NCBI RefSeq assembly: GCF_026151205.1
Contig: NC_087083.1
Coordinates: 11,034,944-11,098,943 of the forward strand
DNA length: 64,000 nt
Direction of reading: 5' to 3'
Source of the DNA: Bolinopsis microptera
Taxonomy: Eukaryota > Ctenophora > Tentaculata > Lobata > Bolinopsidae
The translations under genes and the position numbers were made by a program. The notes under the pieces are model-generated. The model was not told where the DNA came from and ran no database searches. It worked only from the letters and a program-made list of their open reading frames with translations. Below, piece by piece: positions 36,596-62,627 of this stretch. Numbering within the stretch: the stretch's first letter is position 1; each line of letters starts with the position of its first letter.

Positions 36596-36747
36596 TTAAG
36601 CATGATTAGCTCTATAATTCCGTTGTTCCTCCTTCTTCATATTCCCACCCTTTTTGTTTCTCATCAGTGATATAATGAAGATAAGAGGGTTTATTGATGC
36701 GTTCACCAAGATTGTTGTATAGCTGGCGGTGATCAGTAGGGAGAAAT
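36596..36747 (-). CDS. GPCR exon 6 (TM7, tail, stop)
   Basis: Acceptor ATGTTTTGCAG|AT. Reads FSLLITASYTTILVNASINP then LIFIISLMRNKKGGNMKKEE, stop TAA at 36,598-36,596. NPLIF matches the NPxxY/F motif at the end of TM7, followed by a short basic cytoplasmic tail. It needs a phase-1 donor upstream, which exon 5 does not show. Confidence 0.75.
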
Positions 36748-39700
36748 CTGCAAAACATTAGATGATGAGTCTTTATCAAACAGTTTGAATTCTAAATAGC
36801 TTTCAATTAATGATCGCTATATTTATAAAGGGTTTTAACTTTTACAAGCAGTTTTATTAAATATTTTGATGATAGTTGGTGACGAAGTGAAAATCTCCAC
36901 TCAGTGTTTCAAAACAAATTAGTTGTCGAAATCATCAAAATATATGATCGACCCACTCATAAGAGCGAAAAAAAGACCAAAGTTTTATTAAATGTATCAT
37001 TTAAGGGGACATACATCAAAACCTTTTTTGCCAAGACCCGGGATTTGACTTCATATTATGAAAGTATAGATTACAACTGTAAGATTTGAGGCATTGAAAA
37101 TATTTTTTGAGAGTACGCACATTCGAAAAAAAATTATTTTCTTTTTCGAAAGTTTTGGAAATTTTGAGAAGTCTGTCAATACCGATATTTCAGTCATTTT
37201 AAACGTTTTTTTGGCTGATTTTTTTACTGAACATTATTTACAATCCTTAAAAGAAGCCCTTCAAAGGATTTTATAATCAAACAATAGATGACGAATTTAT
37301 AATTATAGACAAAACAAGGTCGTTTTTTTTCCTTTGGTTTTCCGCAAATAAGTCACGTTCTGAATATCCTAAAAGATTCTAGTTTAAACTTTAAAGCAGT
37401 GTGTTTAGAAAACAAAGAAGGATCGGCTATTCAGAACGATCGCATTTCTCGATGAAAGTGTAATAGATGCTTTTTATTCGGAAAATTCTACACTAGCTAC
37501 CATAAAGCTAAATGGAAGATGAACAATGGGGCGCATGTACCAGTGACCACTCTTATGAGTACAGCTCCGAAAAAGCTGCTCATTCAAAACATCAGTTGCA
37601 ACTGTTTAAAGTCAGGTTGTGGCAATACTTGTTCATGCAGAAAAGCAGGAATACATAGTGGATCAACCTGCCTCAAATGTCAGAACAATTGCACCAATGT
37701 GCCAGCTGAGGACTCATAAGACTCTTATCTAGCATATATGGTTACATGATAAAGTACTGCTTCGATTTACCGATTAATTTAATGAAAAGTTGTTAATTAT
37801 TCGTGTCATGTAATTTTAAAATATTTTGATCGAAAATAATTTTTATAATCTTTGAATATTTGTCAAATAATTGATTAACTAATTAATTAATTATCTAATC
37901 CAATGGTTGTCGAATAAAAAGTTGTTCTCTTTCATGTTTTGAACACATTGGTTCAATCTAGATTTTTCTACAACATTCAGAAGTCGTTTTATTAGCGGAG
38001 ATTCAATGTGGTAAAAAGTGGTAAATAGTGGTTATTCTTTACAAATTTCGAAAAGTCCAAAATATTGCAAGTGAAAATTTTCAAAAGCTTTATAAAAATT
38101 AGTTCATTATACGTGTAATGTAATTGTGAACATTTTTTATCAAAATATATTTTTGAAATATTTTAAAATATATTAATTATTTAATTAATTAATTAAATAA
38201 TTTATTTTTGAAAAATTTGTTACAGAAAAAGTTTTTCTTTTTTGTTTTCTAAACACACTGCTTTAAACTAGAATCTTCTAGGATATTCAAAACGTGACTT
38301 ATTTGCGGAAAACCAAAGTGGTAAAAAGGTGGTAATTGTGGATTTTGCTCTAGTCAGAAATTTTGGGAATTCTCTGGAATGATTCCTGGGACCTGTCCTG
38401 ACCATTTCCCGTTAAAATCGCTTAGTTGCGAATTTTGTCCGACAAAGGCTTAAACTAGGACGTATTTGACTGTACGCGTACTCTCAAAAAAAATTTTGTA
38501 CCGTCAAGGAAGATGAAATGTGAGTGGAAAGAGTGATGGGTAAACACCATTAGCGCGGATTCCAATGCAGTTAGTGTTACATACAATTCTTGAGAAAAGC
38601 ACGCCCCCGTTATTTGGTCCCTAATAATTGAGGGTTCTAAAGGGAATTGAGTTTGAGACAATCACCGTGGTCAACATCCACTGCGAAGCCTTAATTTACC
38701 ATTATGTTTAATAGTATTTGACTCCCAAATTAAAGTTATAAAAATAAATCTAGAACCCTTATAATGCTGTTATAGTTATTTGAGGTATTAAACCCAATAT
38801 TTAAACTTTGATCTGTCTATAAAAAATATAAACAAGTGGAAGAACCGTTATGCGTTCTAACTCTAAATTCTAACATTCTTTGAGTCTGGCGAGTGGCGAA
38901 TATCAATTAATACTTTGAGTCCGGTAAATAAATACTTAAAGTCTGGCTATAAAAGCACAAAGTCTGGTAAATTAATACTTCAATGGTGTTTGGCCGTATT
39001 TCCAACCGGTCCTTGTAAAATGAGCAAACAATTCCAAAGGTGAATGACCGGAAAATATGCGTAATTGCGAAAAAAATTTAAATTCTTTTCAACCGTATTC
39101 TCTTTGAGCATGAATGCATTAATTTATTAAAATCACTATCAAACCAAAATTGATAACAATTTCGTTTTGCCAAAATATATAAAATTGCGAGGAGAAAAAT
39201 AAATCGTAAACATTGGTAAAACTAAAAGTTTAGTCTTGACACTCAAAACTTACGAATTTCAGAACAAAATTTTTGAGATTCTTTACCTTTCATTTCAATT
39301 TCTTTAAAGAAGAGAATGTCGAATGTAACCGTCATCTGAGGTTGAAATTATGCTTAGAATTGAGCAGAAATCCTGTACATACCTTAATTTAAATTCAGAA
39401 TTGAACAAATTTCATCTCACAACAGAGAAGACCACGAGCCTGAAAATAAAGTTAAATATAATAACCTCCTGATCAAGGTAGTGATACCGCACATATTTGC
39501 ACAAAATCTCAATCATGATAAGCCAGTAAGGTAGATAACAAAGCAAAAAGGCGGTCATCACGGTTAGGGTTGCGTAGGTTGCTTGGGTTAACCATTTTGA
39601 CCTTCTCATGACGTCAGTTTTTTCCTGACGACTCTGATGGATGATCCGTCCCCAGTTATAGTGGTCTCCCTGTTTTAAAATTTTTTTAATTTGAAAATTC

Positions 39701-42700
39701 AATTAATAATTTAATTAGTTATTATAAAAATGACGGTATAGAATTAGATGTAATAATATTATAGTTATAGTATAACTTATACTATAAGATTATTATATCG
39801 AGGCTTAAAATCATTCAATGTTACTTTAGTCATATTTGTTGAATCATTGTAAGAGTTCCACGCACAGTCCCTTTTACATGATATTGATACATAGAATTAC
39901 TTACCCTTGCACGCTTGCAGAGGTTAAAGTCAACACTTCGCATGACTTAGTGTTAATTTTATCTTTGTTTCCCAACGGTTGGGCAGACTTTAAATGTTTC
40001 TTTAAAACCCTGTTCCAGCCCTGGATGATACAGTTTCCTCGTAATACGACAGAATTTTCATTGTTTGGTCTTTCAGCTATATTATAACAGTTAGCGAAAC
40101 TTACTTTTAGTACTTTGATACTATTTAATCTGCAAATAATTTTCATTTCTACTGAAAAATCAATTTGTACCTTCTTAGAATGATCTCGTTTATGTCTAAG
40201 TTTAATCATCTCCACTACTATAGCAAAGTATAGCGCCAGAATCAGAGCACCGGGTATCATCAGAGGTATAATTACCATAAACACGTGGCCCCAGACAATT
40301 AACTTTCCGTCCGGTAGTAGCTGAGATGATAGGAAAGTATAGTGATTGAAAACAAAAAGTAAAAAAAGTAAAAACTTTTTTGTTTGGAAGTTTCCAAAAG
40401 ATTTAGAACATTATATTTTGTCAAGAATTTCTCATTTGATTGATCTCTGATTGGATTTCAATAGGAGTGGCCAAGAGTAGTGACACTAAAAACAAACTCT
40501 ATGATATTTGGGTTATGAATAAAACTAGAGTTAATTGGAACAAATATGTTGATTACAAACGAGTGTTTGATGCTATTAGAAGTAAAGAAAAATTTGAGTA
40601 TTTTGATAAATGTTTTAAAGCAAATCAACATGATTTGAAAAAGACTTGGAAACTGATAAACGGTTTGCTAGGTAGGAAGAGATCAAACAGATTACTAGTT
40701 TTTCCTAATCAAGATGCAGCGCATAATTTTAATTATTATTTTGTTAATATTGCTAATGATCTTTTACTAAAAACGTATGGTGAAAATGCTAACGCGGATT
40801 TAACAGATTTTAATAAATATATGCCTGAGAGGAACATAAGCGAGCTATCGGATATTAATTTTTCAAGTGAAGAAATAAATAATATTATAAGTAAGCTTAA
40901 TAATAGCAAGGGTACGTATTATTCTCCTAGGGTCCTCAAACTTTTAGCTACCACTATAAGTCCTTTACTGGCTGATATTTTTAATAAATGTGCAAATGAA
41001 GGTTATTTTCCGAAAGAATTAAAAGCAGCAAAAATAATTCCTTTGTATAAGAATAAAGGATCTATTTCTGATATAAGCAATTATCGTCCTATTTCAATGT
41101 TACCTGTTTTTGCTAAGATTTTCGAGAAGTTAATACATAAAAACGTATCTGATTTCTTTAATAAGCACAATCTTTTCTGTGATAATCAGTTTGGTTTCCG
41201 CAGTAAGCACTCAACCTTTCATGCACTTGTTTCAGCAGTAGAAAATCTTCATGATGCTATCGATAATAAGAATTTTACATTAGGTATATTTATAGATTTT
41301 TCCAAAGCTTTCGATACAGTGCGGCATAATATTTTGTTAGAAAAGCTGGAGAACTATGGTATTCGAGGAAATGTCATTAAATTATTAAACAGTTATTTAT
41401 CAGATCGGGTTCAGTATGTTAGCTATGGGGGATTCGAAAGTTGTCTCTTAAAAATAACCTGTGGTATTCCACAGGGGTCAGTGTTAGGCCCCCTGCTCTT
41501 CATTATTTTTATCAATGATTTGGCAAATATTTGTGAGTTAGCTAAATTTATCCTCTTTGCGGATGATTTAAACCTTTTTCTTCAAAATAAAGACCGAAAT
41601 TTACTTTACAAAAATGCTAATGAGGTATTATCAAAGATTCACGAATATTGCTGCTTAAATAGGTTAATCATTAATTTTGAAAAATGCTGTTTTATGGAAT
41701 TCGGAAATAGTAAAGTTCCTAAGAATCAAAAGTTTGTTGGAATACTTAACAACCAGTTTAATCAAGTGAATAAGTGTAAATTTTTGGGAGTCATTATTAA
41801 TTCTAATTTAACGTGGAATGATCATATTACCAATGTAATAACGCAAGTTTCAAAATCTTGCGGATCACTCTACTCAATAAGTTCTATAGTACCAGCCAAA
41901 GTGTTAAGACAAGTATATATTTCACTTGTTCAACCATATTTAATGTATTGTATACCACTGTGGGGTGCTGTTTTTCACCATCCTTTGCTGCAAAAACTGT
42001 TTGTGTTGCAGAAAAAATGTATTCGTATTGTGAGTAGAAAAACAATAAAGATTGATCACAAGTTTCAAAATACTAAACCAATGTTCTTTCGTTTGAAATT
42101 ATTAACCTTGTTTAACTTATTTACATACTTTACTGGATGTATTGCAATGAGGCTACTTAAAGAACAAATTCCTATTGATGTTTATCGCCGGTTTAGCAAG
42201 TCAAGTAGATCATGCAGACTGCTATATCCTAAATTCTCAATGTCTAAGACCAAGAATAGTAATTTTGTTTTTAATGCATCCAAAATTTTAAATTATCTCC
42301 TCGATCATGATGTACCGTATCATATTTTGTCAATTTCACTATTTAAAAAGAGATTTAAGAACCATTTGCTTCATATACAAAACCTAGGGCTAAATGGGGA
42401 TCATGGATGGCTACCATGTAATCACGATATCTTCTCGAATGTATCAATTTCATAAAATAAGTTAATTTCAACTAGGGAAATATAAATTGAAGTTAATGTT
42501 TTGGGGACGTTTGTGTGTTTTTTGTGTGCATTTTATTGTGAGTATTTAAAACAAGATAGGGACTATAATTGTAACGGTTTAAGTGTATACGTCTTTATTA
42601 ATGTTGCCTCCGATTTCACTACACTGACAACATTCACTTTTTATTTTTTGTGTTATTTTTTACTTGAGATCTCATATCATAAAATTTTACCATCGCGATA

Positions 42701-48700: not shown

Positions 48701-51700
48701 TCAGTAAAAGATGATATATTTTAACAAGTAAAATTCATATAATTGACGATTAAGAGCTGTAGGAGTGTGTTCATGACTCGGAAAGTGGCATACTCTTATA
48801 GCTATGGTATGAAATGGTTAACTTTAGTCAAGGTCTCTACGACCTTCGCTTTTGGCGCTGTGAATCTTGCGCTTCAAGCGCACTGCGAAAATTCCTGCAG
48901 GAACTTCCCGACATTGTAGAGACCTGAAACCTCGATTAAAGTATATTAGAGGAGCACACATTTAGAACTCCTTCCATACTCCTTCGTGACTAAATTGACG
49001 ATTTAGAGAATTTTACCCGTTTAAAATTGGTGAAAAATATGGGCGTGGCCTAAGTCAGTATTATACGAAACCGTAGAGACACAAACATTTTTTTGGTTGT
49101 TCCTGACCCTATAATAGAGCAACTAATTAGAGGTGATATCTAATTATTTGAACGAAAAGTGGTTTTGTGAACCGCCTTATAATGCCAGATAACCCCCTCT
49201 ATATCCCTGAGCTGTCCCGCATCAGGGTTCGCAGATCCTCTTTAGAGTTTGTCCCAATTTCCTTCAGTAACATAGACAAGTAGCTTTGTCTTGGTCGGCC
49301 TTGTTGTGCTCTACCAGTACCCTGAATACGTTCCCATAAGACTAAATCACTGGCAAGTAGCTCAGGATTTTACTAACATGTTCAGCCACTCAGAAGTGCC
49401 AAATGATCCTCTGGTTCATGAAATGAACAAAAATGAACTTAACCCTAAAATCGACTAAACTGAGTTGAAACCGATCAGAGTCTGTTGGTCAATTCGTGGG
49501 AATTTAGAATAATGTTAATTTATTTGTTCTTTTTGTTCATTCCATGAACCAGGGGAATATTTCGCACTTTTAAGTGACTGGAAATGTTAGTACACATGCC
49601 CCTCTACCATACCAGATCCATTTCATGCCAGTTCAGGCATAATTACCGCTAAAAAGCATGTTTCTAAATTTCTGTCAAATGTTTCCAAAATCTTAACTAC
49701 TGCTCAGAAGCCAAAATGGAAATATTGCCCAGAGCCCTTTCTGAACAAGCTGGACCCACTAAACTTCCCGGGGACACTCCTGGTATCAATAGCAATCGGT
49801 TTCAGTTCAGTCCAGGACATTCTGAGACAATGTTCATTTTTTGTTCATTTCATTCATTCCATGAATTCCATGAATTCCATGAATTCGATAAATATTTCAA
49901 AACTAGCTGGACAAATACCGCCAAAAACATCGATAAAATGTTGTCTCCAACATCTTGGATACATCTTCTGTACTTTGGATACCGCGAGTTCATGAATCCG
50001 AGATTTTGGAAACATTTTGGAAACATGTGTCAGAATTGTGTCAGAATTGTGTCCGATTTGGAAACATGCCTTTGTAGCCACAATTATGCCTGGACTGACT
50101 TACAATCGATCTGGTATGGTAGAGGGACATGTGTACTAACATTTCTAACCACTCAGAAGTGCGAAATATTGCCCTGGTTCATGGAATGAACGAAATGAAC
50201 AAAAAATGAACATTGTCCTAGAATCGCCTAAAATGAGCTGAAACCGATTGGGATCGATTGGTATTAGTACCACAAGTGTCCCTGAGAAGTTTGGTGGGTC
50301 TAGCATGTCCAGAAGGGCTCTGGAGCAATGTTTCCATTTTGGTGTCAGAGTAGTTGAGCTCGTGGAAACATTTGTGTCCGATTTGGAAACATGCCTTTGT
50401 AGCCACAATTATGCCTGGACTGACTTGAAATCGATCTGGTATGGTAGAGGGACATGTGTACTAACATTTCTAACCACTCAGAAGTGCGAAATATTGCCCT
50501 GGTTCATGGAATGAACGAAATGAACAAAAAATGAACATTATCCTAGAATTGCCTAAAATGAACTGAAACCGATTGGGATCGATTGGTATTGATACCACAA
50601 GTATCCCTGAGAAGTTTGGTGGGTCTAGCATGTCCAGAAAGGGCTCTGGGGCAATGTTTCCATTTTGGTGTCAGAGTAGTTGAGCTCGTGGAAACATTTG
50701 TGTCCGATTTGGAAACATGCCTTTCTAGCCACAATTATGCCTGGACTGACTTGAAATCGATCTGGTATGGTAGAGGGACATGTGTACTAACATTTCTAAC
50801 CACTCAGAAGTGCGAAATATTGCCCTGGTTCATGGAATGAACGAAATGAACAAAAAATGAACATTGTCCTAGAATCGCCTAAAATGAGCTGAAACCGATT
50901 GGGATCGATTGGTATTGATACCACAAGTGTCCCTGAGAAGTTTGGTGGGTCTAGCATGTCCAGAAAGGGCTCTGGAGCAATGTTTCCATTTTGGTGTCAG
51001 AGTAGTTGAGCTCGTGGAAACATTTGTGTCCGATTTGGAAACATGCCTTTGTAGCCACAATTATGCCTGGACTGACTTGAAATCGATCTGGTATGGTAGA
51101 GGGACATGTGTACTAACATTTCTAACCACTCAGAAGTGCGAAATATTGCCCTGGTTCATGGAATGAACGAAATGAACAAAAAATGAACATTGTCCTAGAA
51201 TCGCCTAAAATGAGCTGAAACCGATTGGGATCGATTGGTATTGATACCACAAGTGTCCCAGAGAAGTTTGTTGGGTCTAGCATGTCCAGAAAGGGCTCTG
51301 GAGCAATGTTTCCATTTTGGTGTCAGAGTAGTTGAGCTCGTGGAAACATTTGTGTCCGATTTGGAAACATGCCTTTGTAGCCACAATTATGCCTGGACTG
51401 ACTTGAAATCGATCTGGTATGGTAGAGGGACATGTGTACTAACATTTCTAACCACTCAGAAGTGCGAAATATTGCCCTGGTTCATGGAATGAACGAAATG
51501 AACAAAAAATGAACATTATCCTAGAATTGCCTAAAATGAACTGAAACCGATTGGGATCGATTGGTATTGATACCACAAGTATCCCTGAGAAGTTTGGTGG
51601 GTCTAGCATGTCCAGAAAGGGCTCTGGGGCAATGTTTCCATTTTGGTGTCAGAGTAGTTGAGCTCGTGGAAACATTTGTGTCCGATTTGGAAACATGCCT

Positions 51701-54700
51701 TTGTAGCCACAATTATGCCTGGACTGACTTGAAATCGATCTGGTATGGTAGAGGGACATGTGTACTAACATTTCTAACCACTCAGAAGTGCGAAATATTG
51801 CCCTGGTTCATGGAATGAACGAAATGAACAAAAAATGAACATTATCCTAGAATTGCCTAAAATGAACTGAAACCGATTGGGATCGATTGGTATTGATACC
51901 ACAAGTATCCCTGAGAAGTTTGGTGGGTCTAGCATGTCCAGAAAGGGCTCTGGGGCAATGTTTCCATTTTGGTGTCAGAGTAGTTGAGCTCGTGGAAACA
52001 TTTGTGTCCGATTTGGAAACATGCCTTTCTAGCCACAATTATGCCTGGACTGACTTGAAATCGATCTGGTATGGTAGAGGGACATGTGTACTAACATTTC
52101 TAACCACTCAGAAGTGCGAAATATTGCCCTGGTTCATGGAATGAACGAAATGAACAAAAAATGAACATTATCCTAGAATTGCCTAAAATGAACTGAAACC
52201 GATTGGGATCGATTGGTATTGATACCACAAGTATCCCTGAGAAGTTTGGTGGGTCTAGCATGTCCAGAAAGGGCTCTGGGGCAATGTTTCCATTTTGGTG
52301 TCAGAGTAGTTGAGCTCGTGGAAACATTTGTGTCCGATTTGGAAACATGCCTTTCTAGCCACAATTATGCCTGGACTGACTTAAAATCGATCTGGTATGG
52401 TAGAGGGACATGTGTACTAACATTTCTAACCACTCAGAAGTGCGAAATATTGCCCTGGTTCATGGAATGAACAAAATGAACAAAAAATGAACATTATCCT
52501 AGAATTGCCTAAAATGAACTGAAACCGATTGGGATCGATTGGTATTGATACCACAAGTGTTCCTGAGAAGTTTGGTGGGTCTAGCATGTCCAGAAAGGGC
52601 TCTGGAGCAATGTTTCCATTTTGGTGTCAGAGTAGTTGAGCTCGTGGAAACATTTGTGTCCGATTTGGAAACATGCCTTTGTAGCCACAATTATGCCTGG
52701 ACTGACTTGAAATCGATCTGGTATGGTAGAGGGACATGTGTACTAACATTTCTAACCACTCAGAAGTGCGAAATATTGCCCTGGTTCATGGAATGAACGA
52801 AATGAACAAAAAATGAACATTATCCTAGAATTGCCTAAAATGAACTGAAACCGATTGGGATCGATTAGTATTGATACCACAATTGTCCCTGAGAAGTTTG
52901 GTGGGTCTAGCATGTCCAGAAAGGGCTCTGGGGCAATGTTTCCATTTTGGTGTCAGAGTAGTTGAGCTCGTGGAAACATTTGTGTCCGATTTGGAAACAT
53001 GCCGTTGAAAAGAATGAGAAGTGATGGTGGACCCCTAAACACTCCCAAACGTGCCAGACGTTGGATTTAAATGTTTTTGTATACTATTGAATAATACAGG
53101 GGGGGGAGCAAAAGTCAGTACCCATACGTTGGCCTTAATAGCTCAGTCACTGAGTGCCCAATTGAAATAATTCCTTTTGGTATGACTTACTACCAAATGA
53201 AGGTTCATTTTCGCATTTATTTGATAGTTTTGATATCCGGATCGAACCAAATGTTATTGAATGGTGTTTGGTCATTTAAATTACGTTTGTCCTGAAAAAA
53301 TGAGTCCTAGCTTTTCAGATGACCGAGATATGAAGATAATAATTTTATAGATAACCGGTAGTAGAGACTTATCAAACTATTGTTTAGGAGGAAACGCGAG
53401 CTTTCAGTGTAATACACTTTCATCAGGCTCAAATTATTTGCTATATAGTAGTGTTGCAAGTATTAAGACATATGAAGCATAACAAGTTTGTTCATTACAT
53501 GTGATCAGGTGATTAGGTTGAGGCTAGACCCGCATTATGGGAAGCATGCAGAGAGCCCAATTACGGTTGTCGTAATTGGGTAATCATTGAGTACCCAATC
53601 AATTTTGCTAACGAGATAAACAAATTGCTTGATAACTTCGTCATTTTAATTCCGTTTCGCGCCATCTTTCAGATTATTTTCCGGATTAAACGACCCAGGC
53701 AATATGTTACAACGGAGTCTCTAACATATTCACAAACACGAATATAAGTAATTCAATGTTGATTGCGTGTGGCCCCCAAAAATCGAATTTTTTAAATTTT
53801 GGTGACGGAATCCTCGAACAAGTAGGTTCAGTATGCCATCTGCAAAGCAACAACTCTCATAAAACACGGCGGTGGTATAAGACCCAACGTATGGGTACTG
53901 ACTTCCCCCCCCCCCCCCCCCCCCCTCAACTCGATTCCAGCTCATTTCAGGCGATTCTAGGATAATGTTCATTTTTTGTTCATTTCGTTCATTCCATGAA
54001 TCAGGGCAATATTTCGCACTTTTGAGTGGTTGGAAATGTTAGTACACATGTTCTTCTACCATACCAGATCAAAACCTAGTCAGTTCAGGCATAATTGCGG
54101 CTACAAGGGCATGTTTCCAAATCGGACACAAATGTTTCCACGAGCTCAACTACTCTGACACCAAAATGGAAACATTGCCCCAGAGCCCTTTCTGATCATG
54201 CTAGACCCACCAAACTTCTCAGGGACACTTGTGGTATCAATACCAATCGATCCCAATCGGTTTCAGTTCATTTTAGGCATTTCTAGGATAATGTTCATTT
54301 TTTGTTCATTTCGTTCATTCCATGAACCAAGGCAATATTTCGCACTTCTGAGTGGTAAGAAATGTTAGTACACATGTCCCTCTACCATACCAGATCGATT
54401 CCAAGTCAGTTCAGGTATAATTTAATTGCGGCTACAAGGGCATGTTTCCAAATCGGACACAAATGTTTCCACGAGCTCAACTACTCTGACACCAAAATGG
54501 AAACATTGCCCCAGAGCCCTTTCTGAACATGCTAGACCCCCAAACTTCTCAGGGACAAGTTTGTGGTATCAATACCAATCGATCCCAATCGGTTTCAGTT
54601 CATTTTAGGCAATTCTAGGATAATGTTCATTTTTTGATCATTTCGTTCATTCTATGAATCATAGAAATATTTCACAGGAAGCTTAAAATGTTAGTACTCA

Positions 54701-57700
54701 AGCCACTGTATCATACCAGGGCAAATCCAACTCTGTTTACGGACATATACTGTATACAGCCAAAAACATGTTTCCAAATCGGACACAAATGTTTCCACGA
54801 ACTCGGATTCATCTTCTGGATACCGCGGGCGCGATCTTGTTTCACCAACGAAATCCTACTAGCTTCATCAATTTTGAATAAATTTTACGCGCGCGCGCGG
54901 CGAGACGCGCGGATTTTCGGAGATGAACGAATTTAAGTAAACCCGATTTATTATTTTTGCTCTGAAAATTAATATATAGGTGGAAGTAGAACCCAACTTT
55001 ATTGCACTCTACGCATCTAAAACTCATATTAGTAGTAATGTTAGTTGTCGCTTAACTAAACCATTTCAGATTTTATGTCGAGTTACGTCATTGTTTGCAT
55101 CATTGATGTAAAATATACCTGGGAAACTCCTTCTAGCCGCACCTCACGCATGATGAGTGATAGCTCATATCGAAAACCCCCGAGCTGAAGTGTGTGTCAC
55201 ACGAGAGTCTGCAACATGGTGTGTAGTTAATACTTTTGAAAATTAATTATTTCACCACTAGAAGATTTACAGGTTGTAATTGTAATAAGTCTATCTATGT
55301 GTTATGATTCATGTTTGTCTATTAATAATAATTATTTTTCTCAGGAGTCACGTGCGAAGGACAAAATTTGCCGTTACGGCAGTAGACAATTCTAGCTAAG
55401 AAAGCAGAGTTCAGAGCAGAATTGAAGCAGAAAGCTGCCGACCAACACCTGTACCTCTCAGCGCAGCAACACAAAACAAAAAAGGTGGCACCCAATCTAT
55501 TCACCCAACTCCTGACAGTACATGGAATCACCCCAGACAATTACAGACTTCCTCTGGCGTTTGGTCTTCTCCCTGGAAAGCGGCAAGAACACTACACAAA
55601 CTTACTAGAAGAACTGGATCGCTTTGGACCTTTCCAGCCAGACACCGCCCTTTGTGATAATGAAGCTAGACTACGGAACAGTGTCACTGCTGTCTGGCCC
55701 GGGACTACTCTACGTGGCTGCTACTTCCACTTCAAACAGGCTCTATGGAGGAACTTCGCTCGCTCTGACCTTGTTCCGGAGTATCAGGTGGTTGGATCCG
55801 ACATCCGGAAAGCCTTCCAACGGATCGGAGCTCTACCTTTCATCCCTCCTGATGACATTCACTACGGAGGGCAGACCTTTAGACCTATCCTCTCCGCAGA
55901 TATGGATGTCTTAACATTATACTTTGAGTCCACGTGGATGGGAACACCAAACAGACCTGCTCGCTTCGATCACCTGTCCTGGAACCAGTACGATTGCTGT
56001 CTAGCTGGTCTCCCACGCTCTTTGAACCTTACAGAAGGATGACATAATGGTTTCCGCAGCCTCGTCCAGTGTTCAAATCCTACCATCTGGAAATTCCTTG
56101 AAGCCCTCAAACTAGAGCAAGGACTAACAGACTCAACACTGACAACACTCTTGGAGTATTCTAAGACAGGACAACACGTGTTATGCTCCAGCTCTACAAA
56201 TCCCTGATAAGGTCCAGAGTGGAGTACTGCTGGCCGCTTTGGAATCAAAACAAGATCTATGATGTCCAGTCTATCGAGAGCATACAACGCTAGTTCACCA
56301 GACGGATTCTAGGGCTCAGAGACACCGATTAAATGGAATAGACTGAAGGAACTGAAACTTACATCACTGCATAGACGCCGAGAACGCTACACCATCATAC
56401 ATCTGTGGAAAGTTCTCCAGGGAATATGTCCAAATGTTCTAGATGTACAGTTCAGAGAGAATGCCAGACTGGGAGTTAAAGTTATACTCCCTTCTCTCAC
56501 CAAACAAGCATCAGCTGCTGCACGCTCCACCTACGACCACTCATTCGCAGTAAGAGCTGGAAGACTCTGGAATGTTCTCCCCAAAATTGTCAATACTCGA
56601 AGGACTTTGACAAGCTTCAAGACATCTCTTGGAAACTTCCTAGACACCCTTCCAGAATCCAGACAAGCCCCTACTTCTGGATACAGTGCAGAAAACTCTA
56701 TTTCTACAGACATAGCGGAGTTCTACAGTTACTAGCTACGAGTCCACATGGATCGAGATCTCATCAATCCTACCTTCGCTCACTACAAATGGAGTCCACC
56801 AAGATGCTGCTTCCCCGGAGTTCAACATAGCTGAAGGATTGCTCCACGGCCTCTACTGCACTCAATGTTATCCTTTTCAAACCTTACTATCTGGAAATTT
56901 CTGGACTGTCTGAAGGCGGGGCAGGACATAACATATGTGAAACTCACGAAGAGACTGTGCAGAGAACGTCCTAGCCGAGGAGCAGCAAAGTGGATCTTAA
57001 GTATGACGAGAGACTGCAGACTGTTAACTTGATTTTCTTAAAGTTATTGGATGTATGATTTGAATTTATGATATAATGAATTTGTGATTTAAATTTATTA
57101 ACATGACTTTCAAATTGATAATCTCTCTTGGTGAAGAATATAATAATAATTTGTATAATTTGTAAAGTTCGTAGATTCCTCTACAGGGTCATCGAATAGT
57201 TCGACCGCCCTTGTTTAACAGTACACTACATTGTAGATGTTCTGAAGGAGTATCCTAAGATTCTTGATCTTTTGGCACAGGCACCCCTCCTCATTTAACC
57301 CTCAATCAAGTTTCCTATCATTCGGCTAATTCGACCGAGGAGATCACATAGATCCAATGAATCCTTAGCTACTCCCTAGACTGAGTAAAACTGGGATTCT
57401 AACCCTGAACCTTCTGTACAGAAGGCGGAAGCTCTTAACCACTAGGCCACCCAGCCATTGAGAAAAATTGGGGGAAATTCAACTAAGCGTCGCTTATTTT
57501 CGGTACTGCTTGTCCCCGTTGACTAACCGACGTGTTACCACACTTAGTATTAAGGCTTCATGCAGAGAAAAGCATGTCAAGACGATAATCCCGCTTAGGC
57601 CATATTACAATTCAAATACACGATGCAACGAATTTTGAGGCCATGCCTTGGCCTTGTTCATACAAGTTGTATATCCTACTGGAGAACTAAAGCAATATTG

Positions 57701-60700
57701 GGCCGCATTCTTTGTTGGCACCGCAATCATTTCCTATTCTAACATACATAGCATAATAACATTGAACATAGGTAAGCAAGCAACACCACGATTTTCTCGT
57801 AAAATCGGTAATATTTCTGTATTTAATGTAGAGCCGGGCGCTAGATCACAGATATCCCTAGATATGCACGATCTTTGATCCATCTAGGGTCGCCCCTGAA
57901 ATTGGAGATACTCTCTCTAAGGCATGCTACCATCTTATTTCACAATTGCCTGTAGGGAGGTACCCCAAAAATTACCTTTTTAACTAACAGTTGCACTGCC
58001 ACCAGACAGGAGGGTGTAAAATGCAGCTCTGATTTGAAGAAATCAATATGACTGAAGACTCTTATAAAGCTAATTTGTAGCGATTGTATCGGCAATCTGT
58101 TCAGCCGACAACCACTACATTTATTGATTACGAGCTGTGCTTGTAATCGATAAAGGATTCCAATGTTGTAGTGTCAGAGTCAGTAAATTAACGCATGCTA
58201 CCCTAAATTAACGCATGCTACCGGCCCTGTACCCCAATACACACGATGTCCTCAGACCTCATCATTGATTCTCCAGTAAATTTAACGACATTACTTCGGA
58301 GTATTCCAACAGCCACATTGTTACACACGTGCAACCAGCCAATTGTAGGTAGCCGAAGGATTAATTTTGGCCAGTGACGGTTAAACTTAAAGTAGTGTGT
58401 ACCGTACTTCGCCCGAGACTGCTGCAATGTGCAGCTCCTCATTTAACCCTCACTTCCGATTTCCCGAGTATTCGGCTGATAGAAATGTTCCCTTTGTCTA
58501 TAAGTATAACCACGATCCAATAAACAATAAATGAAAGCAAAAACTATATTCATCACTTATTTATCGCCATTTAAAAGTTTATAATATTTGACCCTATGTT
58601 CTCCAGTCCTAATATATAATATAACCGGCCCGTATAATATAACCCGTAAAGAGCGAGTAGTGCGACCGACGTAAGCCTTTCCACAGACACTACATTGGGA
58701 AATAACAAATAAATGATGTTGTAACTCTATAAGCAGTAGAAGTTTCCACTTTCCAAGGGAAGCTTTAAGTTCACAACATTTGCATCGTGGCACATTGCAT
58801 TCGCTGGTTCATGGTTGGGCCATGTTTAGCTCCTAAAGCAAGTAAAGTTCTTTCAATTTGACGAGGCGAGATTTTAACAACATAACTCGCAGGACTGCTG
58901 TATTTAGCACACGCGCGACTGTAATGATATGAAAAATGAGCCGTCCACTCATGCCTATATATAGTCATCGTGTCCATAGATACGTGAAGCGACGCGTATC
59001 CATAGATACGTGTAGTGACGCGCAAGTTATTCTATTATGAATTCATTTTGTTCGGCGCGCGGCGTAAGAATTTATTTTGACCATATAAATGTTCATAACT
59101 GTTTATGAGAACCTGCGCTGAGTTTTTTGAGAAGGGCGACATTCGATTGAGCATTTTTGCTATCCAATGGTATAAAATGTAGCACCAGCGCAATTATCGC
59201 TCAATAATCTTATTTCTACGCGCAGCTCTCAGCGGGAAAAAATGGATTTAAAAATCATTTGCTGAAATTTAAAAAACGTCAAAAAAATTGAAAAAATTCG
59301 GATTTTTGATGGTTTTGAATGCCGTCGAGCGTTCATATTAATGTCCGTTCATAATTATGTCCGTTCATGTAATGTCCGTCCAAATAAGGTCCGATAAGGT
59401 AGTAGTTAAAACAGATTTCGTAATTTATTTCAAAATGTGTGCCTTTTTCAGCGTAAGATTACATTTTTTTTATTCTTAACCAAAATAAAATGTTTAAGTC
59501 ATTTGATTCACTCATTTTTATGCTATATCCCAGTAATGCAATTATAGCAATGGTATCTCTAAATTCTAATAATGAACGATCCTAATTTTATACAAAATCC
59601 TTGATTCATTGAAATGTTCATTAAAGCAGATATTGGTGTGATTGAACGGTGAACCTTCAAAAAAATAACCGATCAGTTTTGAATTGCATATATTTTTTAT
59701 ATCCAACCATTTTGTCAAGAAATTATGTAAATCAGATGTTTTTTAATGTGTCAAATCCTCTATTTCTTATAAAAAACTTATATATATTTGAATATCTCAG
59801 AAAATTGAATTTAAGAATATATGCGGAATCCGAAAAATATGCAAATTAGGAATGTTTTTCACTGCACTGTAAATCACAAATTAATAAACGAATAATTAAT
59901 AATTAATAAACTTATATTTAATAAACTAAAATATATTTGACGTCTTCATACCTCGTGGATGGACCAGGTGCAGAGTCCAATGTACTGACTGTAAACATAT
60001 CTGGCTCCTTTAAAGAATGGCACAATGGAAACAAGTATCGGTAGGATCCACATGACTATCATGTATCGGGATACTAAGGTTCCTTGGACCAGTCTCTTGA
60101 AGTGCATTGGTCGGGTTATTGCCAGCAGCCGGATCAAACTCAGCCCTATTGGGGAATATTGATTTGTAAAATTATCAAGACATAATAAAAAAGATACCGG
60201 CATAAACATCATAAAATATTATGAATGATTTATGTCGACATTAGTTCGGGAAACATTATCATTTATCACCATTGGATTCATTATAGTTATTATGATGCAT
60301 TGTAGGTATTGATGATTGTAGATATTGATACATTGTAGATATTGATGCACTGTAGATATTGATGCATTGTAGTTATTATGATGCATTGTAGATATTGATG
60401 CATTGTAGATATTGATGCATTGTAGTTATTATGATGCATTGTAGATATTGATGCATTGAAGTTATTGATGCATTGTAGTTATTATGATGCATTGTAGATA
60501 TTGATGCATTGTAGAATTTGATGCATTGTAGATATTGATGCATTGTAGATATTGATGCATTGTAGATATTGATGCATTGTAGAAATTGATGCATTGTTAA
60601 TATTGATGCATTGTAAATATTGATGCATTGTACATATTGATGCATTGTAGTTATTGATGCATTGTAGATATTGATGCATTGTAGATATTGATGCATTGTA

Positions 60701-62627
60701 GATATTGATGTATTGTAAATATTGATGCATTGTACATATTGATGCATTGTAGATATTGATGCATTGTAGATATTGATGCATTGTAGATATTGATGCATTG
60801 TAGATATTGATGCATTGTAGTTATTATGATGCATTGTAGTTATTATGATGCATTGTAGTTATTATGATGCATTGTAGTTATTTTTGCATTTTAGTTATTA
60901 TGATGCATTCCTTGGAAGTCATTTTAGTGATGACGATCCGATGGATACACCGGTTCCCGGGTTCCAATTATGATACCTCAGATTCACTGGTTGACCAAAT
61001 ACTCGGCTCCACTTTAAATGGTGGTTAATGACGCCAATGTTTAAATGCAGATTCCATGACTGTATAATTTCGAAGTTCACAAATTTAAATTTCTCTAGAA
61101 ATTGTTAGTTTCGAAGCATTGATCCTTCATCAATTAAACCAAATTTAAACAGTTTTAAAACTGACAGATTTAACTCAACATCAAACTCTTACCTGCGATA
61201 GAGAGAACAACATGTCTGAGAGTGACGTTAAACACGAATCCAGTGACATTGCATGCAATTTCAGATAACCATCCTGACCCCATGTATCTATAGTTCATCG
61301 ATGGTAAATACGTCAAAAAATCGCCTGTAAATACGCCGTATTCAAAAATTCTAAGAAATACGTGAAATACGGCAAAATTTGGCGCTTAAATTCTTTGATG
61401 GTAAAATTTTTCAAAATACGCGCGTATCTCTTTCGAAATACGTGATTACAGATTAGTGATATTTGCGCGTGCGTCGCTGGCCCAGTGGTATATTAATATA
61501 GCAATACTGACAGTCGTTTTGGAGACTTCACGGTGCTCGAATGAAAACGCTGCAGCGACTTGCTATTCTTATGCTGAACCAACCAATCAGTCAGTCTGCT
61601 GCAGAGCAGAGCTTCTCAGGTTATAAAGCAGTTATGCCTCCCTCGAGGAATAGACTTTCAACCGAGACCCAGTTCCAGTGCATTTTTATCTATTACAATA
61701 TTCGCAGACTAAGATCACAAGTCTCTCTTGCTTGAATTTTGAAACCGGTTACCGGATTAACACGGACTTCCCAGTGGCATAAGTTTAAAAAGTGACTAGG
61801 AATCCAGCCTGGAAAGAAAGAACGGCTATAATAAACTTTTAAAACGGCTATAATAAATTTTTCGGCCGGATGACGATTTCATTTCACCTTGCTAGTTATA
61901 TTACAGAGGTATTTTTAGTTATTCATTAGTTATTCATAATTGCCAAAAAGTATGGGAAAAATTATCCTATCCGAGTCACGAACTCGCAATCTGCTGATTT
62001 GGAGCTAGCGTATTAACCAATTAGGCCACGATTCCATATGCTGTGATGTAATATTTATATATCGATCTTCGCGCGTTACTGCAACTTAATTTGAAATACG
62101 TAATTTATCATCGGGAAATACGTATGCGTAGTACCTACGCGTAGTCTCCCCAAAACGCATTTACCATCCTTGCTATAGTTAGCTACGCTCACCAACGAGG
62201 CAATCATTGGGAATATTGTGTAGAGGAAATCGCTGACAGAGGTGCTGAAAGTGTAAAAATCAGGTTTCGGTTCTTAAATTTTCCTTTTTTATTCAAATCT
62301 CTGCAATCTCGATATGTTTAAAAGAAAAAAATTCGATATCTATGGCCCTGTTTTAATTTTGGAAGATTTAAATAGTTAACACATATAGATTGCAGCGGAA
62401 TCAAGCAGAAGAATTGCCAGTGAGCCATATAAAATTGTACCTATCCGGACGTTCACTTACTTGAATACGATTCTGAGAGACGGGTTCATGAAATGAGCCG
62501 GCTTCCACTCTCTCCAAATGTTTCTCAAAGTGTAAATATTTAAACACATTGATAGGATAATCAAAACAGCCAGTACCGCACTGATACAAACGTCACCTCG
62601 CCTCCTGAAAATTTCCGCCACGTTCAT
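36596..62627 (-). CDS. Class A (rhodopsin-like) GPCR gene, six exons, transposon-expanded
   Basis: Exons on the minus strand: 62,627-62,461; 62,244-62,173 plus 61,289-61,193 (one exon split by a hAT element); 60,145-59,952; 40,320-40,171; 39,669-39,466; 36,747-36,596. The ATG exon carries TM1 and the last carries TM7 and a short basic tail, about 345 residues in all, normal for the class. Canonical marks: Asn in TM1 (CLNIYTL), SDFL in TM2, Cys at the top of TM3, Trp and Pro in TM4, ECL2 Cys, Pro in TM5, FLLCYLPYW in TM6 and NPLIF in TM7. The DRY motif is replaced by I-R-L. Junctions 1-5 agree in phase; the last (39,466 to 36,747) does not close, so a small exon is missing, the donor is elsewhere, or the gene is broken. 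A G-protein-coupled receptor at the plasma membrane; the ligand cannot be told. Introns are 216, 1,047, 19,631, 501 and 2,718 bp. Confidence 0.75.
37322..38335. repeat. Inverted repeat pair, about 90-bp arms, around a Cys-rich frame
   Basis: 37,335-37,418 (GTTTTCCGCAAATAAGTCAC ... AGCAGTGTGTTTAGAAAACA) equals the complement of 38,235-38,320 with few differences. A third, diverged copy in the orientation of the right arm is at 37,935-38,015. The pair lies in GPCR intron 5 and may be the TIRs of a small element. Confidence 0.75.
37460..37719 (+). pseudogene. Cys-rich C-terminal domain fragment
   Basis: The frame reads FGKFYTSYHKAKWKMNNGAH, APKKLLIQNISCNCLKSGCG and NTCSCRKAGIHSGSTCLKCQ, ending NNCTNVPAEDS. 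The C-x-C...C-G-x-x-C-x-C-R-K...C-x2-C...C pattern after AP-x-x-LL is a tail seen at the C-terminus of many invertebrate repeat-borne proteins of unknown function. A stop closes the frame upstream at about 37,455. Probably the 3' end of a transposon-borne gene of which nothing else is readable. Confidence 0.5.
37720..39411. other. No gene seen (GPCR intron 5)
   Basis: AT-rich, with TTAATTAATTAA runs at 37,880 and 38,175. A tandem-like TTTGAGTCTGGCGA/TTTGAGTCCGGTAA motif spaced about 30 bp lies at 38,878-38,975. Confidence 0.5.
39466..39669 (-). CDS. GPCR exon 5 (ICL3, TM6, ECL3)
   Basis: Acceptor TTTTAAAACAG|G, phase 0. Reads a hydrophilic loop (RIIHQSRQEKTDVMRRSKW), then TM6 LTVMTAFLLCYLPYWLIMIE, where Tyr replaces the usual Trp of the CWxP motif. 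The lower end is uncertain: GAG|GTTATT at 39,466 is the only reasonable donor, but its phase (0) does not match exon 6. Without splicing, the frame runs to a stop before 39,412. Confidence 0.8.
40171..40320 (-). CDS. GPCR exon 4 (TM5, ICL3 start)
   Basis: Acceptor TATCATCTCAG|C with a pyrimidine-rich tract upstream; donor AAG|GTACAAAT; phase 0 at both sides. Reads LLPDGKLIVWGHVFMVIIPL, MIPGALILALYFAIVVEMIK and a basic end (LRHKRDHSKK). TM5 Pro is present. The LINE insertion begins only about 110 bp upstream of the acceptor. Confidence 0.85.
40440..42455 (+). CDS. LINE reverse transcriptase, endonuclease lost
   Basis: 671 open codons from just after a TGA; the first codon is TTG and the first ATG in frame is at 40,515. 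RT motifs are intact: KIIPLYKNKGSISDISNYRPI, SMLPVFAKIFEKL, NQFGFRSKHST, IFIDFSKAFDTV (A), GIPQGSVLGPLLFIIFINDL (B), FILFADDLNLF (C), CKFLGVIIN. The C-terminus runs through VYISLVQPYLMYCIPLWG to a stop after SNVSIS. This belongs to the Jockey/CR1-like superclade. The APE endonuclease expected upstream is absent because of 5' truncation, so it could not insert on its own. The open frame and low divergence imply a fairly recent insertion. Confidence 0.9.
   Translation: MISDWISIGVAKSSDTKNKLYDIWVMNKTRVNWNKYVDYKRVFDAIRSKEKFEYFDKCFKANQHDLKKTWKLINGLLGRKRSNRLLVFPNQDAAHNFNYYFVNIANDLLLKTYGENANADLTDFNKYMPERNISELSDINFSSEEINNIISKLNNSKGTYYSPRVLKLLATTISPLLADIFNKCANEGYFPKELKAAKIIPLYKNKGSISDISNYRPISMLPVFAKIFEKLIHKNVSDFFNKHNLFCDNQFGFRSKHSTFHALVSAVENLHDAIDNKNFTLGIFIDFSKAFDTVRHNILLEKLENYGIRGNVIKLLNSYLSDRVQYVSYGGFESCLLKITCGIPQGSVLGPLLFIIFINDLANICELAKFILFADDLNLFLQNKDRNLLYKNANEVLSKIHEYCCLNRLIINFEKCCFMEFGNSKVPKNQKFVGILNNQFNQVNKCKFLGVIINSNLTWNDHITNVITQVSKSCGSLYSISSIVPAKVLRQVYISLVQPYLMYCIPLWGAVFHHPLLQKLFVLQKKCIRIVSRKTIKIDHKFQNTKPMFFRLKLLTLFNLFTYFTGCIAMRLLKEQIPIDVYRRFSKSSRSCRLLYPKFSMSKTKNSNFVFNASKILNYLLDHDVPYHILSISLFKKRFKNHLLHIQNLGLNGDHGWLPCNHDIFSNVSIS
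42721..42737 (+). other. Hairpin in LINE 3' UTR
   Basis: AGCGGTG-AGA-CACCGCT, 7-bp stem and 3-nt loop, in the 3' UTR of the truncated LINE. In several LINEs a 3' stem-loop is what the RT recognises; here that is only suggested by position. Confidence 0.5.
43325..43815 (+). pseudogene. Pogo/Tigger-like DDE transposase remnant
   Basis: The core is VPANMTNLFQPLDITVNRVSK (43,490-43,550), the widely conserved strand around the last catalytic region of pogo-like DDE_1 transposases. Upstream is LPEAQKTLLVYDIFKGHLA and downstream are pieces such as GFHIKLEITDALSMDY. The pieces are in different frames. The DNA-binding region and earlier catalytic Asp residues are not found. It lies 160 bp inside the TIR at 43,161, the expected place for the transposase of a TA-targeting element. 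Confidence 0.7.
43830..47354. other. No gene seen (inside GPCR intron 3)
   Basis: AT-rich, about 3.5 kb. Near-palindromes such as CACTGCGCGTGCAGTG (43,995) occur. Minus-strand frames at 44,232-44,426 and 44,928-45,161 have no recognisable domain. A poly-C tract lies at 47,187-47,203. Confidence 0.45.
47365..49182. mobile_element. Long-TIR element, about 585-bp arms
   Basis: The left arm (47,365 to about 47,950) and right arm (about 48,610 to 49,182) are reverse complements with scattered differences. The ends read GGCGGTTCACAAAACCACTT. Inner landmarks are CCTGCAGGAA...CGCTT/AAGCGC and AACACTGTTAGTTTTAAAA. The 660-bp centre has three imperfect 60-bp repeats (TGATTACTTCATAGCTCGTC). A 69-residue minus-strand frame is not recognised. 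Foldback or MULE-like architecture without transposase. Confidence 0.88.
49370..49990. repeat. Diverged satellite units, direct then inverted
   Basis: 49,370-49,490 resembles a direct unit and 49,520-49,870 an inverted unit of the 326-bp satellite. The edge of the inverted unit has an ATGAATTCC triplication. Confidence 0.75.
50051..53000 (+). repeat. 326-bp satellite, nine direct units
   Basis: Anchor GTCCGATTTGG occurs at 50,051, 50,376, 50,702, 51,028, 51,354, 51,680, 52,006, 52,332, 52,658 and 52,984, a 326-bp period with one 325-bp unit. Units are nearly identical. Each carries a GTTCAT-GGA-ATGAAC inverted motif followed by more ATGAAC copies. Identical 85-aa frames recur in every unit, but 326 is not a multiple of three and frames open on both strands overlap, so coding is unlikely. 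Confidence 0.97.
53097..53926 (-). mobile_element. Mariner-like MITE, copy 2, homopolymer ends
   Basis: Reverse-orientation relative of 31,908-32,696: GTCAGTACCCATACGTTGG at the left, complement of CCAACGTATGGGTACTGACT at the right, and internal GGTGACGGAATCCTCGAACA. The CAGGGTGGGC end has become a G run (53,099-53,106) at the left and a long C run at the right, with no TA there. It lies between the direct and inverted satellite arrays. Confidence 0.8.
53935..54810 (-). repeat. 326-bp satellite, about 2.6 inverted units
   Basis: Complement of the satellite unit; anchors CGGACACAAATGTTTCC at 54,124, 54,455 and 54,780. The last unit is more diverged. Confidence 0.92.
54811..55400. other. No gene; CG-rich pocket
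   Basis: 54,880-54,920 has a (CG)n run (ACGCGCGCGCGCGGCGAG). Otherwise AT-rich with no supported coding region. Confidence 0.45.
55401..56190 (+). pseudogene. MULE transposase fragment, one nonsense codon
   Basis: The frame 55,422-56,042 reads the MULE transposase core: LPLAFGLLPGKRQEHYTNLL, TALCDNEARLRNSVTAVWPG (catalytic Asp/Glu region), LRGCYFHFKQALWRN and LPRSLNLTEG. A TGA (56,040-56,042) replaces the expected Trp, and the same frame goes on HNGFRSLVQCSNPTIWKFLE. The N-terminal FLYWCH region is missing. The 3' part runs into an unrelated LINE fragment near 56,190. It is distinct in sequence from the MULE remnant at 23.3-24.0 kb. Confidence 0.85.
56191..56735 (+). pseudogene. LINE RT C-terminus (CR1/L2-like)
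   Basis: Reads LYKSLIRSRVEYCWPLWNQN, IESIQR, a stop, FTRRILGLRD, then LKELKLTSLHRRRERYTIIH, LWKVLQGICPN and FAVRAGRLWNVLPK to a stop at 56,734. This is the thumb and C-terminal end typical of CR1/L2-type RTs, without motifs A-C. It contains a stop and a small frameshift near 56,325. It sits between two MULE fragments. Confidence 0.85.
56740..57031 (+). pseudogene. MULE transposase C-terminal fragment
   Basis: Reads EFNIAEGLLHGLYCTQCYPF, then after a one-base shift LTIWKFLDCLKAGQDITYVK and GAAKWILSMTRDCRLLT, stop. It parallels the end of the fragment at 55.4-56.2 kb (HNGF...NPTIWKFLEALKLEQ) but is not identical, so it is a different copy or the displaced end of the same gene. Confidence 0.75.
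57285..57456 (-). repeat. tRNA-derived SINE
   Basis: The minus strand starts GGCTGGGTGGCCTAGTGGTT, a good pol III A box, with the B box GGGTTAGAATCCC about 50 nt downstream. The body (57,285-57,365) resembles 58,433-58,525 (CTCCTCATTTAACCCTC...TTCGGCT.AT). No intact acceptor stem, so a SINE rather than a tRNA gene. Confidence 0.7.
57457..58556. other. No gene seen
   Basis: Open frames at 57,648-57,878 (plus) and 58,218-58,442 (minus) have no recognisable domain. CGCATGCTACC is repeated at 58,191 and 58,210. Confidence 0.45.
58557..58793 (-). pseudogene. Possible Penelope-like GIY-YIG fragment
   Basis: The minus-strand frame reads LQHHLFVISQCSVCGKAYVG and RTTRSLRV, ending TGEHRVKYYKLLNGDK. 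Penelope-like and related GIY-YIG endonucleases carry C-x2-C-G-x-x-YVG-x-T followed by an R and a nearby H, which fits in order. The fragment is short and without RT motifs, so the call rests on this one signature. Confidence 0.45.
59952..60145 (-). CDS. GPCR exon 3 (TM3 end, TM4, ECL2)
   Basis: Acceptor CCCCAATAG|GG, donor GAG|GTATGAAG, phase 0 at the end. Reads LSLIRLLAITRPMHFKRL, where family members have D/E-R-Y before the LAITRP block and this protein has I-R-L. TM4 follows (YMIVMWILPILVSIVPFF), then ECL2 with the disulphide Cys (YIGLCTWSIHE). Confidence 0.88.
60270..60905 (-). repeat. 17-bp minisatellite in GPCR intron 2
   Basis: About 35 units close to TGATGCATTGTAGATAT on the plus strand, with an ATTATGATGCA variant. 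Open minus-strand frames repeating (HQYLQCINIYNAS) are a repeat artefact. Confidence 0.95.
61193..61289 (-). CDS. GPCR exon 2, 3' part (ECL1, TM3 start)
   Basis: Reads RYMGSGWLSEIACNVTGFVF and on to RHVVLSIAG; the Cys is the conserved TM3 disulphide partner. The donor is GCAG|GTAAGAG, phase 1. It joins in frame to 62,173 once the hAT element and one duplication are removed. Confidence 0.85.
61541..61735 (+). pseudogene. hAT transposase C-terminal dimerisation domain
   Basis: 64 residues: LAILMLNQPISQSAAEQSFS then MPPSRNRLSTETQF and IYYNIRRL. This is the hAT-family dimerisation signature (A-E-x-S-F-S...RNRLS). The N-terminal zinc-finger/BED region and the RNase-H-like catalytic core are missing. 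It cannot transpose itself. Confidence 0.85.
61973..62048 (-). ncRNA. tRNA-like / SINE head inside the hAT element
   Basis: The minus strand reads an A-box-like TGGCCTAATTGGTTAATACG followed by a B-box-like GCGAGTTCGTGACTCG with a T-arm stem (CGAG/CTCG). Acceptor-stem pairing is poor, so a tRNA-derived SINE or tRNA pseudogene is likelier than a working tRNA. Confidence 0.5.
62173..62244 (-). CDS. GPCR exon 2, 5' part (TM2)
   Basis: Acceptor TTTACACTTTCAG|C, completing the split Asn codon from exon 1. Reads TSVSDFLYTIFPMIASLVSV, the TM2 helix with its SD pair, then ANY and the AACTATAG target duplication of the hAT element. Confidence 0.85.

Follow-up and report, generated by a model that had tools for sequence, protein, structure and literature searches.

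A young hAT insertion in a receptor exon of the ctenophore Bolinopsis microptera probably disrupts that gene copy

Results

A hAT deletion derivative interrupts exon 2 of a receptor gene

We analyzed a stretch of 64,000 nucleotides from the comb jelly Bolinopsis microptera (NC_087083.1, positions 11,034,944 to 11,098,943; hereafter the window), in which a minus-strand transposon of 877 bp (62172-61296) lies inside exon 2 of a predicted class A G protein-coupled receptor (GPCR) gene. Our reading is that this young hAT insertion probably disrupts the receptor copy that carries it, leaving a minor in-frame isoform at best. The insertion is defined by the following features, given in window coordinates:

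61296 to 62172, minus strand: 877-bp non-autonomous hAT element with CAAGGATGGTAAATGCG...GTATTTACCATCGATG ends
62173 to 62180, minus strand: target-site duplication AACTATAG, upstream copy
61288 to 61295, minus strand: target-site duplication AACTATAG, downstream copy
61193 to 62244, minus strand: host exon 2, interrupted by the insertion and 167 nt long in its absence, encoding transmembrane helix (TM) 2, extracellular loop 1 and the start of TM3
61514 to 61699, plus strand: remnant of the hAT transposase C-terminal dimerisation region (PF05699; E 8.7e-8; E 1.5e-10, 41.2 bits), antisense to the host gene

The original prediction had described a hAT element with an 8-bp duplication splitting the TM2-TM3 exon, and the duplication is indeed found on both sides of the element; the length given there, 875 bp, had to be corrected to 877 bp. 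It had also held that excision restores the frame exactly. This is borne out by the combined length of the element and one duplication (885 nt, a multiple of three) and by a natural empty site in paralog A, a tandem duplicate that reads an uninterrupted GTAGCTAACTATAGATACATGGGGTCAGG, letter for letter. Two alignments of the window to paralog A, one from each side of the element, share in A precisely the 8 duplicated bases. The upstream alignment has 96.4% identity and the downstream one 86.9%, the latter containing a variable tandem repeat. Paralogs B and C likewise lack the element, and both read AACAAAAGAGACATGGGG at the insertion site. hAT excision generally leaves a footprint, so excision is no sure repair. 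In a protein alignment, the insertion site adjoins a 5-residue gap of the melatonin receptor MT1 between TM2 and TM3, which agrees with its earlier placement in the first extracellular loop.

In a genome search for the element in which 40 of 210 first-look candidates were scored, at least 44 matches were listed; 28 copies, the window copy included, retained both ends. Perfect 8-bp duplications, each differing in sequence, flank 25 of these 28, the window copy among them; the exceptions match at 7 of 8 positions (L035), at 3 of 8 (L034), and at 3 of 8, or 7 of 8 with a one-base shift (L008). The terminal inverted repeats (TIRs) of hAT elements are short and start with CA..G. Those of this element are short as well (CAAGGATGGTAAATGCG at one end and CATCGATGGTAAATACG at the other, read inwards) and follow the same start rule. 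The PF05699 match (cut-off 21.4 bits) covers 62 residues within a 74-residue plus-strand frame. Since this remnant is all that we found of a transposase, with no complete transposase within the element, the element is a non-autonomous hAT deletion derivative. No autonomous copy was found among the 29 genome occurrences of the exact left terminus, 24 of which were checked as both-ended copies or the window; the other five places are one-ended, fragmentary or otherwise uncounted individually.

We aligned the window copy with 21 of 27 fetched loci (L031, L037, L046, L047, L048 and L049 were dropped by a length and end filter, and ten older loci, L053-L062, stand outside this alignment). Relative to the majority sequence of these 22 copies, the window copy shows 7 substitutions and 1 gap column, which indicates that it is young. 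A tRNA-like box A/B motif considered at about 62030-61960 (minus strand) of the element was supported by neither ARAGORN nor Rfam. One Rfam search returned a single sub-threshold mir-2941 match (E 0.27), and another, of the whole window, returned no match at the gathering score.

The host gene and its paralogs

The remaining parts of the host gene that could be read are as follows:

62461 to 62627, minus strand: exon 1, coding part, TM1
59952 to 60145, minus strand: exon 3
40171 to 40320, minus strand: exon 4
39466 to 39600, minus strand: exon 5, core only, 5' boundary unfixed
36596 to 36747, minus strand: exon 6 with ASINPLIF (TM7) and stop

A composite protein, made of exons 1-5 of paralog C and exon 6 of the window gene, matches PF00001 (7tm_1) at E 3.9e-20, and its best match in the PDB is melatonin receptor 1A (E 5.1e-9). 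By this homology, the host gene is assigned to the class A GPCRs; together with paralogs A, B and C it makes four receptor genes of near-identical sequence. Paralog A (L013) lies in tandem on the same strand, about 74 kb off (C12:11.022-11.024 Mb), and paralogs B and C lie about 6.5 Mb away. The window gene is chimeric. Its 5' half is A-like, with the upstream stretch and introns 1 and 2 at 97-98% identity, and from intron 3 onwards (59928-36596) its 3' half is C-like, with 98.5% identity over 40437-37660.

The strongest splice signals would lead to truncated products

We scored candidate splice sites with matrices of human-type frequencies, untrained on the host species. As reference we used 13 donors and 8 acceptors of the receptor family, inferred from protein alignment rather than cDNA. 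The sites that matter most are these:

62159 to 62168, minus strand: TIR 5' splice-like site GATG/GTAAAT (GT at 62164), 1.4 bits
62191 to 62192, minus strand: cryptic exonic donor TTG/GTGAGC, phase 0, 4.1 bits, at or above 7 of the 13 inferred donors
61808 to 61819, minus strand: strongest acceptor of the region, TTTCTTTCCAG, first exonic base 61808, 9.8 bits, leading to a premature stop
61324 to 61333, minus strand: element-internal 3' splice-like site TATTTACAG, first exonic base 61324, -1.2 bits, at or above 3 of the 8 inferred acceptors
61273 to 61281, minus strand: originally proposed 3' splice site GGGGTCAG, first exonic base 61273, -6.2 bits

The best signals in the region point away from an intact receptor. 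Acceptor TTTCTTTCCAG scores above all 8 inferred acceptors, exceeds the highest-scoring one in each of the 22 aligned copies, and gives a truncated protein with either donor tried. The exonic donor, 28 bases upstream of the TIR donor, is out of frame with the in-frame acceptors; as an in-phase site it was rejected, being in phase 0 and giving a truncated product with the strong acceptor. Reading through the element leads to a stop within it, 32 residues after the NY at the insertion point, and skipping exon 2 (167 nt) shifts the frame. Two further acceptors scored -5.7 bits (AACTATAG then A, at the duplication) and 0.5 bits (TATTTCTTAG then A, in the element).

We propose the following course of events. 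A hAT deletion derivative recently inserted by ordinary cut-and-paste into exon 2 of a member of a small, recently duplicated class A GPCR family, and the insertion probably breaks this receptor copy, with donor TTG/GTGAGC and acceptor TTTCTTTCCAG, the strongest splice signals, yielding truncated products. The loss could be tolerated because near-identical paralogs without the element remain. A minor in-frame isoform might still arise through the TIR donor and TATTTACAG/GCG, adding 15 residues to extracellular loop 1.

Some points weigh against this proposal. Splicing of the receptor family appears to tolerate weak sites, with inferred real donors scoring as low as -1.8 bits and acceptors as low as -3.8, which leaves room for a weak in-frame pair. 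The scores depend on the human-type matrices, and the reference sites come from protein alignment. Moreover, the lack of stops and frameshifts in the other exons examined fits a very young null allele and a functional allele equally.

Could the element be spliced out with its own sites?

The alternative that fares best supposes that the element supplies both splice sites, CAAGGATG/GTAAAT in the TIR and TATTTACAG/GCG, so that a receptor with 15 extra loop 1 residues is made that could work. We consider this unlikely, though it has a simple arithmetic in its favor. The acceptor lies 29 nt before the other end of the element, and this route would leave 8+29 nt of element and the 8-nt duplication; 37 nt plus 8 nt makes 45 nt, so the reading frame would be preserved irrespective of where the insertion occurs. 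The 45-nt insertion is open in phases 0 and 2 and contains a stop in phase 1. The predicted product is open both in the window (NYSKDGDFLTYLPSMNYRYMGSGW, without a stop) and at a second locus, L036 (351 aa). Both sites occur in 22 of 22 aligned copies, and the 29-nt tail in 21 of 22 (28 nt in L042). The internal acceptor equals or exceeds 3 of the 8 inferred acceptors, and the TIR donor 3 of the 13 inferred donors; the latter also ranks at the 96th percentile of GTs on the window minus strand, in keeping with its earlier description as a fair 5' splice site. Loop 1 is, in addition, variable in length, with MT1 5 residues shorter there.

Against this route stand stronger competitors, namely the acceptor at 61808 (9.8 bits) and the exonic donor (4.1 bits), as well as two other donors within the element (2.2 and 2.1 bits) that beat the TIR donor. 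In a predicted RNA fold, moreover, the TIR donor is paired with the other TIR, and the copies are young, so the conservation of the sites is uninformative on selection.

A broader version of the same idea would make the hAT family a portable intron, such that any sense exonic insertion could be spliced in frame, with an open product in two of the three phases. On the sequence features at hand, we regard this as quite unlikely. If true, an animal hAT family would be an incipient introner, and the window and L036 receptors would carry newborn introns. A second copy, at L036 (C7:17.214-17.217 Mb), splits a receptor-like frame of 336 aa that consists of a single exon; its orientation and phase equal those of the window copy, and with them both insertions would allow an open in-frame product. 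This frame gave no Pfam match; it has seven relatives in the genome with 61-65% identity over nearly the full length and without stops, and the receptor locus L043, which itself matches PF00001, matches it at E 2.5e-20. As read, the L036 insertion falls within TM3, where 15 added residues should be harmful. The shared orientation and phase of the two insertions proves nothing, as n=2 and a one-in-three case has occurred twice.

When the 28 both-ended copies were joined across their empty sites, long frames were not interrupted in excess: frames of at least 100 aa spanned the join at 6 of 28 copies, compared with 26.8% of points picked at random in the flanks of these copies. By inspection, these six are the receptor-like frame at L036, a receptor at its ATG (L043), a LINE-like frame (LINE, long interspersed nuclear element; L047), a simple repeat (L004) and two unassigned cases (L042 and L037). 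In these joins of the 28 both-ended copies, only the window copy and L036 interrupt a receptor frame; a search for further exonic copies had been put forward as a check of the original prediction. Introners are recognized by many copies acting as introns in different genes; here, the 28 empty-site joins showed no enrichment over random points.

A third copy at a receptor (L043, C5:21.19 Mb) sits at the start of the PF00001 frame, and its duplication contains the ATG, so the start is retained by the downstream copy. At L047 (C6:2.95 Mb), a 704-aa LINE-like frame is host to a copy that itself carries an additional long insert.

Other readings of the insertion

It is also conceivable that the window gene was already unexpressed or a pseudogene when the element arrived, in which case the insertion would be neutral and there would be nothing to splice. 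The chimeric structure of the gene would suit such a history, as would its 19.6-kb intron 3, which holds a long plus-strand reverse-transcriptase-like frame, and the three changes of its own that separate it from both A and C in exons 1-3 (codons 8 and 44 residue-replacing, codon 169 silent). However, the exon parts that were read (exons 1-4, the core of 5, and 6) contain no stop or frameshift apart from the element, and the window gene differs from A at 4 of 528 coding nt, compared with 2-3% of aligned sites in introns 1-2. We judge a previously dead copy to be improbable.

A further way out would be removal of the element from the mRNA independently of the spliceosome, by SOS splicing. This process needs base pairing of the terminal repeats and ligation by RTCB, and CAAP1 is one of its factors. 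A minimum-energy fold of the element with 60-nt flanks pairs element positions 1-18 with 860-877, with two mismatches on each side. The duplex of the two 120-nt ends reaches -50.2 kcal/mol, compared with a mean of -35.8 and a best value of -46.8 in 100 mononucleotide shuffles. Such predicted end pairing would suit SOS splicing; it would also make the TIR donor inaccessible to U1. The TIR is short, however, and a search for the CAAP1 family gave no match, with control genomes equally silent. As modeled, this reading appears very unlikely.

Least credible of all is the junction originally proposed, from the TIR donor to GGGGTCAG/GATGG, in which the transposon would have become an intron at birth. 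Its arithmetic is sound: the frame is kept and open, and the five residues RYMGS of loop 1 would be replaced by the three residues SKD (NY-RYMGS-GW to NY-SKD-GW, giving NYSKDGWLSE). The named acceptor, however, scores -6.2 bits, below all 8 inferred acceptors (-3.8 to 3.6) and at the 45th percentile of AGs on the minus strand; 35% of the 20 nt examined are pyrimidines (the original prediction had itself noted the lack of a strong pyrimidine tract), and better AGs lie upstream within the element. On the acceptor side it is the weakest of the choices scored. The idea of an intron at birth keeps its frame arithmetic and its TIR donor, loses its acceptor, and survives only in changed form, as it would need different sites or another RNA mechanism.

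Similarity between paralogs A and C is largely confined to exons

The contrast between exons and introns among the paralogs may be of more interest than the insertion itself. A (L013) and C (L015) lie 6.5 Mb apart, yet their exons 1-3 (window counterpart 62627-59952) are 97.6-98.5% identical, with 11 differences in 528 nt and synonymous changes at 4 of 121.7 sites (3.3%), whereas introns 1, 2 and 4 align no better, or hardly better, than shuffled sequence does (re-checked for introns 1 and 2). Exon 4 is 95.3% identical, with changes at 2 of 36 synonymous sites, and the exon 5 core is 80.7% identical, with changes at 14 of 29.8 (47%). Synonymous divergence differs between exons 1-3 and exon 5 (Fisher p = 1.3e-8). 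The simplest reading that this pattern suggests is gene conversion or exchange templated by spliced RNA. Two observations speak against a strict limit at the exon borders: intron 3 can still be aligned over roughly 25 nt where it starts and roughly 100 nt where it approaches exon 4, and a permissive A-B alignment continues beyond exons 1 and 2 for some tens of bases into the flanking introns.

Other features of the window

Several repeats and frames were seen in the window. A 671-aa frame resembling a LINE reverse transcriptase lies in intron 3 (40440-42455, plus strand). This LINE-like stretch is absent from paralog C, whose alignment with the window is interrupted between 42875 and 40437. 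Intron 3 also holds a tandem array at 50047-53007 (326-bp unit, 9.1 copies, 98% matches). In intron 2, a 17-bp minisatellite of 35.5 copies spans 60293-60909; the same kind of repeat occurs in A at another length. A 218-aa frame at 55386-56042 (plus strand) is one that we take to be reminiscent of a Mutator-like element (MULE) transposase. Of two glutamate-receptor frames of the genome compared with the PDB, one matches the iGluR ML032222a of the ctenophore Mnemiopsis best (E 9.7e-121; 3.7e-71 for the top chain under a different name), whereas the other matches a kainate receptor best and has no ML032222a chain among the 60 matches listed.

Discussion

Events of the kind considered here are already known, maize Ds and introners being the nearest analogies. 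The maize elements Ds and Ds1 are reportedly spliced as introns from exons, according to RNA work associated with Dennis in 1988, Wessler in 1991 and Giroux in 1994. Removal of Tc1 from C. elegans mRNA is likewise said to have been described by Rushforth and Anderson in 1996, and SOS splicing by Zhao in 2026. The ctenophore insertion resembles maize Ds in that a coding exon harbors a non-autonomous hAT element whose terminus offers possible 5' splice sites. Like the substrates of Tc1 and SOS splicing, it is an exonic DNA transposon whose terminal repeats could pair in RNA, by a predicted fold; it differs from these substrates in its short hAT TIR and in that the pairing is predicted from DNA.

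Introners of the Aureococcus type supply both splice sites themselves and lengthen the transcript by 12 bp, of which the element contributes 4 and the duplication 8 (PMC9860276). The hAT element is comparable in having both splice-like sites inside the element, an 8-bp duplication and a small multiple of three added (45 = 37 + 8). The ctenophore case, known from DNA alone, departs from both analogies. For maize Ds, splicing was reportedly shown by RNA work; the present element sits in an animal gene, and splicing at its best sites would end in a stop codon. Introners occur as working introns in many genes, whereas here only the window copy and L036 interrupt receptor frames among 28 both-ended copies.

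As it stands, on present DNA data, this is an ordinary insertion. It is also a datable natural experiment, in which a comb jelly offers a young exonic transposon together with a paralog that shows the empty site cleanly and sister genes that are nearly identical, and it bears on the fate of DNA transposons that land in ctenophore exons, whether as knockouts, newborn introns or substrates of RNA repair.

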